From contig NZ_WUMK01000002.1 in the NCBI RefSeq assembly GCF_009827055.1, positions 558,001 to 622,000 of the forward strand: DNA of 64,000 nucleotides, in the 5' to 3' direction. The translations under genes and the position numbers were made by a program. The stretch is from Shinella kummerowiae (lineage in GTDB: Bacteria > Pseudomonadota > Alphaproteobacteria > Rhizobiales > Rhizobiaceae). Position 1 is the stretch's first letter; each line of letters starts with the position of its first letter. Shown piece by piece: positions 18,898 through 21,886 of the stretch. The notes below the pieces were generated by a model. It did not search any database. It was given only the letters and a program-made list of their open reading frames with translations, and was not told the DNA's origin.

Positions 18898-18987
18898 TGG
18901 CGGACAGAGCGGGATTCGAACCCGCGATAGAGTCTCCCCTATACACACTTTCCAGGCGTGCGCCTTCAACCACTCGGCCACCTGTCC
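18898..18987 (-). tRNA. tRNA-Ser (anticodon GGA)
   Basis: A 90-base class II tRNA including an encoded CCA (18898-18900 read in reverse). The acceptor stem GGACAGG pairs with TCTGTCC. The D arm has GGCCGAGTGGTTGAAGGC, the anticodon loop CTGGAAA gives GGA, a long variable arm follows, and the T arm has GGTTCGAATCC. It reads serine codons UCC and UCU. Confidence 0.97.
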
Positions 18988-19590: not shown

Positions 19591-20241
19591 ATGTTCCTGA
19601 TCGACATGTTCAACAAGAAGACCACCATGCCTGCGCCCGAAGCTGCCCTGCCCGGCCGCGACCAGCCCATCCCCACATCCGCCACCCATTTCGTCAATGG
19701 CCGCGCGCTTCAGGGCCCCTATCCCGAAGGGTTCAAGACCGTGCTGCTCGGCATGGGCTGCTTCTGGGGCGCCGAGCGGCTGCTCTGGAAGATCCCCGGC
19801 GTGTGGGTGACGGCGGCCGGCTATTCCGGCGGCATCACGCCCAACCCGACCTATCACGAGACCACGACGGGGCTGACCGGCCATACCGAAGTCGTGCTTG
19901 TCGTTTATGATCCCGCGGTGGTCACGCTCGAGACCCTGCTGAAGGCCTTCTTCGAGGCGCACGACCCGACGCAGGGCATGCGCCAGGGCAACGATATCGG
20001 CACGACCTACCGCTCGGCGATCTATCTCGACGACGAAGCAGACCTTGCCGTGGCGCACCGCGCCCGCGACGTCTACCAGGCGGCGCTGACAGCCGCCGGG
20101 CGCACCGACCGCATCACGACGGAAATCGCCAAGGCGGGTCCGCTGTATTTCGCCGAAGAGGTTCACCAGCAGTATCTCGCCAAGAATCCGGGCGGCTATT
20201 GCAACCTTCGCGGCACCGGCGTCAGCTGCGCGATCGGCTGA
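19591..20241 (+). CDS. msrA: Peptide methionine sulfoxide reductase MsrA
   Basis: A 216-residue MsrA, which reduces the S-epimer of methionine sulfoxide. The nucleophile Cys57 sits in MGCFWGAE, preceded by an N-terminal extension typical of the longer MsrA form ([16 protein letters not shown]). The resolving cysteines are Cys204 and Cys213 in [30 protein letters not shown] is the family's substrate-site segment. AGGAGG precedes the ATG. A strong terminator follows at 20267-20319. Confidence 0.95.
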
Positions 20242-20266
20242 CCGCCCGATAAAATTCGCTGCTTTC

Positions 20267-20319
20267 AAGCCGTTGCGAAAGAGGATCTCCCCTCTCTTCG
20301 CAACGGCTTCTATTTTTTA
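20267..20319 (+). terminator. Rho-independent terminator after msrA
   Basis: A 13-base-pair perfect stem AAGCCGTTGCGAA (20267-20279) / TTCGCAACGGCTT (20297-20309), with an inner GAGG/CCTC extension, then CTATTTTTT. It ends the msrA transcript before the nucleoside leader. Confidence 0.93.
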
Positions 20320-20348
20320 CCAACTGAAAAATTTCTGGTGAATTTTTC

Positions 20349-20470
20349 CCGGAGCCGTGCAAGGATGCCGCCAGCCTGACCCAGGGGAAAGGGTCGGTGG
20401 CTCCGGTGTGCGCTCCTGCAGGCGCTGCCCGGAAGGTCCCTATAAGATCAATAGCGAACAGGGCTGCACA
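20349..20470 (+). ncRNA. Structured 5' leader of the nucleoside binding-protein gene (candidate regulatory RNA)
   Basis: An outer stem CCGGAGCC (20349-20356) / GGCTCCGG (20399-20406) encloses an inner hairpin CTGACCC (20376-20382) / GGGTCGG (20391-20397) with loop AGGGGAAA. A third short hairpin, GCGC...GCGC, follows at 20411-20426. The leader continues to the ATG at 20471. It matches no riboswitch class that I can recall. It may instead be a protein-controlled or mRNA-stabilising leader; the boundaries are approximate. Confidence 0.4.
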
Positions 20471-21463
20471 ATGAAAAAAACCCTTCTCACCCTTCTTGCC
20501 ACGGCTGCCATGTCGGCCACTGCATTCGCCGCCGATATCAAGCCGGCAATCATCTATGACCTGGGCGGCAAGTTCGACAAGTCGTTCAACGAAGCAGCCT
20601 ACAATGGCGCGGAAAAGTTCAAGGCCGAGACCGGCATCGAATATCGCGACTTCGAAATCGCCAACGACGCGCAGCGCGAGCAGGCACTCCGCCGCTTCGC
20701 CGGCGACGGCAACAACCCGATCGTGATGGCCGGCTTCTCCTGGTCCGCGGCGCTTGAGAAGGTCGCCGTGGAATATCCGGACATCAAGTTCGCCATCATC
20801 GACATGGTCGTCGACAAGCCGAATGTGCGCTCGGTCGTCTTCAAGGAAGAAGAAGGCGGCTGGCTCGCCGGCATCCTGGCCGGCATGGCCTCCAAGACGA
20901 AGACCGTGTCCTTCGTCGGCGGCATGGACATCCCGCTGATCCACAAATTCGCCTGCGGCTATATCGGCGGCGCCAAGTCGCTCGGCCCCGACATCAAGGT
21001 GCTCGAAGCCTATACAGGCACGACGCCGGACGCCTGGAACGACCCGGTCAAGGGCGGCGAAATCGCAAAGTCCCAGTTCGACCAGGGGTCCGACGTGGTC
21101 TACCACGCGGCCGGCGGCACGGGCGTTGGCGTGCTCCAGGCGGCGGCTGACGCCGGAAAACTCGGCATCGGCGTCGATTCCAACCAGAACGGCCTGCATC
21201 CGGGCAAGGTTCTGACCTCGATGGTCAAGCGCGTCGACGTTGCCGTCTACGACGCCTTCATCACCGCCAAGAACGACACGTTCAAGCCGGGCGTCAACGT
21301 GCTCGGCCTCAAGGAAAGCGGCGTCGACGTCGCGATGGACGACAACAACGCGCCCCTCATCACGGCCGAAATGAAGGCTGCGATCGACAAGGCGCGCGCC
21401 GACATCGACAGCGGTGCCGTCAAGGTGCACGACTACATGTCGGACGAGACCTGCCCCTACTAA
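20471..21463 (+). CDS. BMP-family ABC transporter binding protein (nucleoside uptake)
   Basis: A 330-residue periplasmic binding protein of the BMP/PnrA/Med family, which bind purine or pyrimidine nucleosides. A 20-residue signal peptide (MKKTLLTLLATAAMSATAFA) is followed by ADIKPAIIYDLGGKFDKSFN, the family's opening, then EEGGWLAGILAGMASKT and GVGVLQAAADAGK. The conserved FVGGMDIP segment lines the site. It lies before the matching ATPase and permeases and salvage enzymes, which supports nucleosides as substrate. It has its own long leader and a hairpin after the stop, so it is probably expressed separately at high level. Confidence 0.92.
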   Translation: MKKTLLTLLATAAMSATAFAADIKPAIIYDLGGKFDKSFNEAAYNGAEKFKAETGIEYRDFEIANDAQREQALRRFAGDGNNPIVMAGFSWSAALEKVAVEYPDIKFAIIDMVVDKPNVRSVVFKEEEGGWLAGILAGMASKTKTVSFVGGMDIPLIHKFACGYIGGAKSLGPDIKVLEAYTGTTPDAWNDPVKGGEIAKSQFDQGSDVVYHAAGGTGVGVLQAAADAGKLGIGVDSNQNGLHPGKVLTSMVKRVDVAVYDAFITAKNDTFKPGVNVLGLKESGVDVAMDDNNAPLITAEMKAAIDKARADIDSGAVKVHDYMSDETCPY

Positions 21464-21474
21464 GCGGCATTCAC

Positions 21475-21500
21475 GGCCCGTTTGCGCAAGCAGACGGGCC
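21475..21500. terminator. Hairpin between binding-protein gene and convergent slyX
   Basis: Stem GGCCCGT (21475-21481) / ACGGGCC (21494-21500), 11 bases after the binding-protein stop. It lacks a clean T-run on either strand, so it may be a weak two-way terminator or an mRNA 3'-end stabiliser. Confidence 0.5.
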
Positions 21501-21526
21501 GATTCCGTCCTGCCCCGGCTGCGACC

Positions 21527-21748
21527 TCAATAGTGCGGCGGGCGGGTGATGGCCGGGGCTTCGAGAGACCCCTCTTCGAGTGTGAGGAACCGTTCCGTCA
21601 ACCGGTCGAGCTTCGTCCGGAGCTGATCGACCACACGCCATTGTTCGGCGAGCTGATCGGAGAGCTCCTCGATCGTTTTTGCCTGGTGGGCGGCATGCTC
21701 TTCGAGGCGGGCGATGCGCGCGGCCTGGATGTCGTCGGAAGTGGTCAT
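21527..21748 (-). CDS. slyX: SlyX family protein
   Basis: A 73-residue protein that is mainly a coiled coil (ARIARLEEHAAHQAKTIEEL, then SDQLAEQWRVVDQLRTKLDR) and ends in the SlyX hallmark PPHY. The length is normal for the family, whose function is not known. It is on the strand opposite to the transporter and sits between the binding-protein gene and the ATPase gene, so those two are unlikely to be one simple transcript. Confidence 0.93.
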   Translation of the reverse strand: MTTSDDIQAARIARLEEHAAHQAKTIEELSDQLAEQWRVVDQLRTKLDRLTERFLTLEEGSLEAPAITRPPHY

Positions 21749-21886
21749 GGCTGTCCTCGTCGGTCGAATACCGGGCGCCCGGAGCTATAGCCGCCACCGG
21801 CGTCGGCCGCAATCGGACTGGACAAGGGCGGCGGAAGCAACAAGACTAGGCCGACAGGCCCAAAATCCCCGTAAGAGTGGATCATC

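Follow-up and report, generated by a model that had tools for sequence, protein, structure and literature searches.

A conserved, covarying two-hairpin leader and a predicted promoter upstream of bmpA, a gene for a probable nucleoside-binding protein, in Shinella kummerowiae

Comparative evidence from aligned leaders demonstrates that two adjacent hairpins, P1 and P2, make up a conserved and covarying leader RNA ahead of bmpA in Shinella kummerowiae and other Rhizobiaceae. By the same kind of evidence, the DNA upstream of the leader (20326-20366) appears to behave as promoter DNA. Comparative data thus told promoter DNA apart from leader RNA and corrected a plausible riboswitch call, and they define a family of leaders, described by a covariance model and represented in 20 genera, for a rhizobial binding protein of the nucleoside type. 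All coordinates are those of the window, the whole 64,000-nucleotide stretch of DNA that was analyzed.

bmpA (20471-21463, + strand) starts with the ATG at 20471 and, judged from its translation, encodes a PnrA-like ABC substrate-binding protein of 330 aa. The product matches PF02608 (Bmp; E 7.8e-58), and related solved structures include 2fqw and 4pev. Upstream lies msrA (19591-20241; TIGR00401 match). Directly after bmpA comes slyX (21527-21748; PF04102) on the opposite strand, beyond which the + strand carries genes for an ABC ATPase, two permeases and a cytidine deaminase, followed by deoC and deoA. The protein family and these neighboring genes make a nucleoside the probable ligand of the bmpA product. 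Between bmpA and the ATPase and permease genes, the interval 21464-21886 holds slyX and a strong hairpin (21474-21501); because a gene on the other strand and this hairpin split bmpA from the transporter genes, bmpA is probably monocistronic and transcribed alone. The complete msrA terminator described in the original prediction is indeed there, as a hairpin containing a single bulged base and then T6, at 20267-20318 (+ strand; fold -29.1 kcal/mol). Its arms differ in genus relatives, where the inverted repeat and T run are still visible by eye in the alignment; a consensus terminator scan called no terminator at 20267-20318. When the whole window was searched against Rfam at gathering cut-offs, the only match was a tRNA gene at 18901-18987 on the - strand (RF00005, 56.4 bits).

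The region is present in 21 of 21 genomes of the window's genus, and bmpA was found in 132 of 151 family genomes (protein search, E up to 1e-100). Eighty upstream regions were taken from the loci of that protein search; further leaders came from genus loci, one Sinorhizobium plasmid locus, 30 covariance-model loci and 55 more regions.

The leader RNA would run for about 98 nt, from about 20373 to the bmpA start. P1, its 5'-proximal hairpin (20374-20401, + strand), holds the 7-bp hairpin 20376-20382/20391-20397 with the loop AGGGGAAA that had been proposed as an inner stem. P2 (20402-20433, + strand), seen in the fold from the predicted start, corresponds to the third hairpin of that proposal. 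Folding energy was no better than chance either for 20349-20470 (z -1.07; 28 of 200 shuffles as good) or from the predicted start, 20373-20470 (z +0.47; 127 of 200 shuffles). Alignment A2 (MAFFT) contained 26 of the 36 group sequences (25 relatives plus the window), and the two-hairpin structure scored on it was derived from the window's fold together with inspection. Paired cells amounted to 75.4% versus 70.5% in shuffles, two-sided cells numbered 33 versus 18.2, and the covariation score was 0.226 versus 0.158, each of the three values being reached by 0 of 500 shuffles; pairs with a two-sided change, 10 versus 8.5, were not above chance (130 of 500).

Two-sided change was also found in 18 of 20 pairs across 87 distinct leaders (89 matches, a selection of loci in hand rather than every genus member). 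There were 218 two-sided cells versus 75.9 (sd 7.9) after shuffling and a covariation score of 0.346 versus 0.172 (sd 0.009), reached by none of 500 shuffles, in an alignment that was fitted to the covariance model and leans towards the modelled structure; sliding the partners by 1 to 3 columns gave scores of at most 0.107. Two-sided changes occurred in all 11 modelled pairs of P1, the outermost of which, at 20370-20373, coincide with or precede the predicted start, and in 7 of the 9 modelled pairs of P2. The inner and third hairpins of the original prediction are therefore both present and conserved, with compensatory changes in each. Single-sequence folds from the predicted start formed the 5'-proximal hairpin in 92 of 101 leaders, with the first paired base at a median of +2, and the CCG/CGG helix of P2 in only 69 of 101. 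Run unaided on A2, RNAalifold predicted P2 and a further helix, P3, missed P1 and gave a minimal covariation term (-0.28); it yielded almost nothing useful on the first mixed alignment and on 24 distant leaders. A mutual-information scan of 101 sequences (effective number 41), run with no structure supplied, was noisy: a few of its top pairs came from P1 or P2, and many were non-complementary.

Of 394 family genomes, 93 contained a match to covariance model R1 (95 matches in total); they belong to 20 of 109 genera. Two of the 95 were judged to be chance matches and were excluded from the set of 87 distinct leaders (L189, inside another reading frame, and L193, beside a different binding protein); the weak matches L190-L192, which have the promoter motif and a bmpA-like start, were retained. 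An order-wide sample yielded matches in 3 of 199 genomes, all three of the same family. Twenty-six genomes had both a model match and a bmpA protein match, and in each of them the leader match stops at most a few bases from the bmpA start. There is in essence a single R1 site per genome, located before bmpA; the only matches elsewhere are the two chance ones. Compensatory changes and a fixed position before one gene, the marks of a structured cis-acting leader, were thus both observed, with RNAalifold alone giving P2 and not P1. Together with the PF02608 match, the covariation of P1 and P2 supports the earlier proposal of a structured leader RNA before a nucleoside-type binding protein. The accompanying view that the leader lies outside the known RNA classes also held: it matches no Rfam 15 family, a search of 20235-20520 at E up to 10 gave four matches, all far below cut-offs and none meaningful looking, and we found no report of it in the open-licence literature searched.

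A different leader accompanies the common promoter core in 24 more distant sequences (among L045-L097, ending GACAGGGTGTGGATCAC). A 5'-end hairpin, AGCGGG..CCYGCCATG, is visible by eye in these despite the differing sequence; its stem covaries by eye, without statistical support, and the ribosome-binding region is long and invariant.

Upstream of the leader, 165 distinct sequences aligned on the RTGC[AC]A motif show the fixed layout TGA-17-nt spacer-TGC-NANNNT. A TGA -35, a 17-nt spacer and TG-N-NANNNT constitute the layout of an extended -10 promoter. The conserved combination of TG-N-NANNNT placed 17 nt from a TTGA-like -35, as in extended -10 sigma-70 promoters, is thus found across the 165 sequences, the motif being partly search-imposed. 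In the window, the putative -35-like element GTGAAT lies at 20338-20343 and the putative extended -10 (TG, C, AAGGAT) at 20358-20366, both on the + strand and separated by the 17-nt spacer. At the TGA positions, T is found in 95%, G in 99% and A in 80% of the 165 sequences. Most of RTG[CT][AC]A was fixed by the search itself, which also favored a GTGAATT-like -35 when there were several candidates; neither rule imposed the final T of the -10 (96%) or the preceding C at 20356 (98%). Conservation within the spacer is confined to the first three bases (T) and the last bases, the middle being variable, with low information over most of its length. Of the 102 first leaders, 97 carry the RTGC[AC]A core 70-190 nt upstream of the start codon; the -10 motif is missing from L040 and L100 even when one letter is relaxed, and L099 and L101 match the -35 poorly. 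The -10 motif also lies just upstream of all 90 model matches retained (92 minus two chance matches), and by eye the retained matches lead into a start codon and a coding sequence that begins like bmpA. In L035, L036, L090, L093 and L101, the promoter motif is about 170 nt before the start codon, compared with about 115 nt, and the leader is apparently about 60 nt longer (L101 being doubtful).

A promoter consensus scan found no promoter here, GTGAAT included, and the elements are therefore weak by the standard of the textbook consensus. Transcription is predicted to start at about A20373 (A20373 or G20374, + strand), 7-8 nt after the -10, and columns 20373-20374 are richer in purines than the five columns before them in the 165-sequence alignment. 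This predicted start falls upstream of 20406; a start downstream of that position had been named as evidence against the original structure. An upstream mini-ORF, with an ATG frame at 20365, was also considered; by eye its frame differs in the few relatives inspected.

Conserved sequence is also found outside the helices. AGGG, the Shine-Dalgarno sequence at 20460-20463 (+ strand), occurs within the last 18 nt of all 101 distinct leaders. Of 81 distinct leaders from outside the window's genus, 56 have CGCAGAC as the P2 bulge and 65 have GGGAGGA after P2; the corresponding counts within the genus are 0 and 2 (L020 and L021) of 20. The possible P3 proposed by RNAalifold (20435-20465, + strand) would pair GG-n-CCC (20435-20440) with GGGCT (20461-20465) across the Shine-Dalgarno sequence. 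Each of its pairs is formed in 77-85 of the 87 sequences, without any two-sided change; its mean pairing probability is 0.12 (85 leaders), and the GGnCCC pattern is missing in 16 of 101. Accessibility of the Shine-Dalgarno sequence averaged 0.32 versus 0.28 in shuffled-leader controls. Neither the consensus scan nor inspection found a terminator in the leader.

Several other explanations could account for parts of these data, two of which concern the DNA around the promoter. The original prediction closed the fold with an 8-bp outer stem, 20349-20356/20399-20406, which would form in the RNA if transcription started upstream of 20349. All eight pairs are complementary in the window, the 5' end given above is a prediction and the consensus scan sees no promoter, yet we regard an upstream start as highly improbable. 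Of 37 sequences, only the window has the complete outer stem (a count in which the 3' arm of L106 is possibly misplaced). Among 18 distinct genus sequences, the stem averaged 5.83 of 8 pairs versus 5.82 for re-dealt arms, which equaled or exceeded the observed value in 306 of 500 trials; the more distant genus members L020 and L021 stood outside this test and show 6 and 4 pairs in the 37-sequence count. The minimum-energy fold of 20349-20470 does not form the stem as drawn. A terminator lies just upstream, and the fixed spacing, variable spacer and TG-N-NANNNT fit a promoter, in which the 5' arm of the stem occupies the spacer between the predicted -35 and -10. We rejected the outer stem as an RNA helix because it is complete in a single sequence, does not covary and has its 5' arm in the predicted promoter. 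Covariation thus upheld the inner stem and not the outer one, for which pairing equals that of re-dealt arms, and lack of conservation affects the outer stem only, the inner and third hairpins being conserved. A dyad, GAAAAATT-N7-AATTTTTC (20326-20348, unstranded), covers the -35 element, and a transcription factor bound there might control bmpA, leaving the leader as a passive 5'-UTR. The two sides of one arm pair of the dyad change in concert between groups (complementary in 105 of 166, versus a shuffled mean of 67.5 and maximum of 85), and the AT-rich block is conserved across the family. This account is nevertheless improbable as a whole: one further arm pair is barely above shuffles (143 versus a maximum of 142) and the remaining pairs are not, the A-tract and T-tract could equally be an UP-like element, the genome holds no second copy at up to 3 mismatches, the regulator is only hypothetical, and the covariation of P1 and P2 is left unexplained. 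The dyad is best described from these alignments as a candidate operator only.

Other explanations concern the leader RNA itself. The gene context of nucleoside-type transport, the absence of the leader from Rfam, the CGCAGAC and GGGAGGA motifs of other genera and the RNAalifold proposal of P3 over the Shine-Dalgarno sequence would all suit a nucleoside or nucleobase riboswitch, with P1-P2 as aptamer and a weak P3 as translational switch. However, within the genus the bulge motif is absent from 20 of 20 distinct leaders and GGGAGGA from 18 of 20, P3 shows no two-sided change and has a low pairing probability, Shine-Dalgarno accessibility is close to the shuffled control, and there is essentially one site per genome, with none elsewhere save two chance matches. 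A riboswitch is accordingly improbable here, although the leader may have a ligand-binding core other than the bulge; no switch over the Shine-Dalgarno sequence is evident, the comparisons did not show what would be expected of a riboswitch, and the suggestion of nucleoside or nucleobase sensing did not gain support. Small RNAs offer another reading of the same purine-rich sequences, in which the leader is a target of the anti-Shine-Dalgarno RNAs AbcR1/2 (ar15) or ar14 (NfeR1 type), repressors of rhizobial binding-protein mRNAs. According to PMC8844928, AbcR1/2 carry CUCCUCCC and UUCCCCUC and silence transport mRNAs. The genome has four ar15 and four ar14 matches over the cut-off, and each family has two of its matches near one another on a single contig (L195 and L197 on contig C33; L199 and L201 on contig C1). 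GGGAGGA occurs in 65 of the 81 leaders from other genera. GGGAA is found in the P1 loop of 19 of 20 genus leaders versus 9 of 81 outside, and in the window this loop reads AGGGGAA, every base of which is complementary to the ar15 sequence UUCCCCU. Even so, when duplexes were scored by energy only, with no accessibility term, the 18 genus leaders did no better than their shuffles (mean z +0.28, +0.55 and -0.46), and the other leaders, L020 and L021 included, did only slightly better (mean z -0.86, +0.14 and -0.72). By these energies, the better-than-chance pairing expected of an AbcR or ar14 target was absent, and the complementary sites are well upstream of the start codon, so that we consider small-RNA targeting unlikely. 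On a more general view, P1-P2-(P3) would be a new Rhizobiaceae cis-regulatory RNA: P3 over the bmpA Shine-Dalgarno sequence would open or close when P2, with its CGCAGAC bulge, and the GGGAGGACCC strand after it bind a small RNA, a protein or a small ligand, and the window's genus would have kept the helices and altered the binding part. We hold this to be quite unlikely; if a small RNA, protein or ligand did explain the conservation beyond the helices, the leader would be a new regulatory element.

We judge it about an even proposition that 20326-20470 as a whole is a bmpA control region, combining a promoter with a folded leader that acts in mRNA stability or translation, with regulation, if any, at the dyad. 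A sigma-70-type promoter, with a weak -35 within the dyad, a 17-nt spacer and an extended -10, would start the mRNA at about 20373. The leader would then fold P1 within its first few bases, followed by P2 and by a linker carrying the Shine-Dalgarno sequence. On the assumption that the bmpA product is an abundant periplasmic protein, the leader may mainly protect the 5' end of the message and set the context for ribosome binding. Any regulation would be exerted by a transcription factor at the dyad rather than by a ligand-binding RNA. For the leader itself, a role in mRNA stability and translation built on a 5'-proximal hairpin seems the most likely function. Counting against this role, conservation outside the helices in other genera (CGCAGAC, GGGAGGACCC and the linker) exceeds what a plain stability hairpin needs.

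The bmpA leader can be set beside several known systems. Like the NMT1 and xanthine-class purine riboswitches (PMC7373994), it is a Proteobacteria leader of a purine- or nucleoside-related transport gene, with no terminator recognized and the ribosome-binding site downstream; unlike those riboswitches, it has no Rfam match, precedes essentially one gene and lacks the bulge in the window's genus. With the AbcR1/2 and NfeR1 targets (PMC8844928), it shares a periplasmic binding-protein mRNA in Rhizobiaceae and purine-rich stretches complementary to anti-Shine-Dalgarno motifs, and it differs from them in that its complementarity is no better than in shuffles near the window and lies upstream of the translation start region. 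An alphaproteobacterial sigma-70 promoter consensus of CTTGAC-N17-CTATAT is quoted in PMC8844928, and PMC3616915 describes the -10 region of S. meliloti sigma-70 promoters as poorly conserved. The 17-nt spacing and the TGA core in the -35 are common to the predicted bmpA promoter and this consensus. Unlike these promoters, the one proposed here has TG before the -10, a dyad over the -35 and a low match to the consensus. ompA-type 5'-UTRs are structured and have a protective hairpin at the 5' terminus. The bmpA leader resembles them in its hairpin within a few bases of the predicted start, followed by a single-stranded ribosome-binding region, and differs in that P2 is a further covarying hairpin and that sequence is conserved between it and the start codon.
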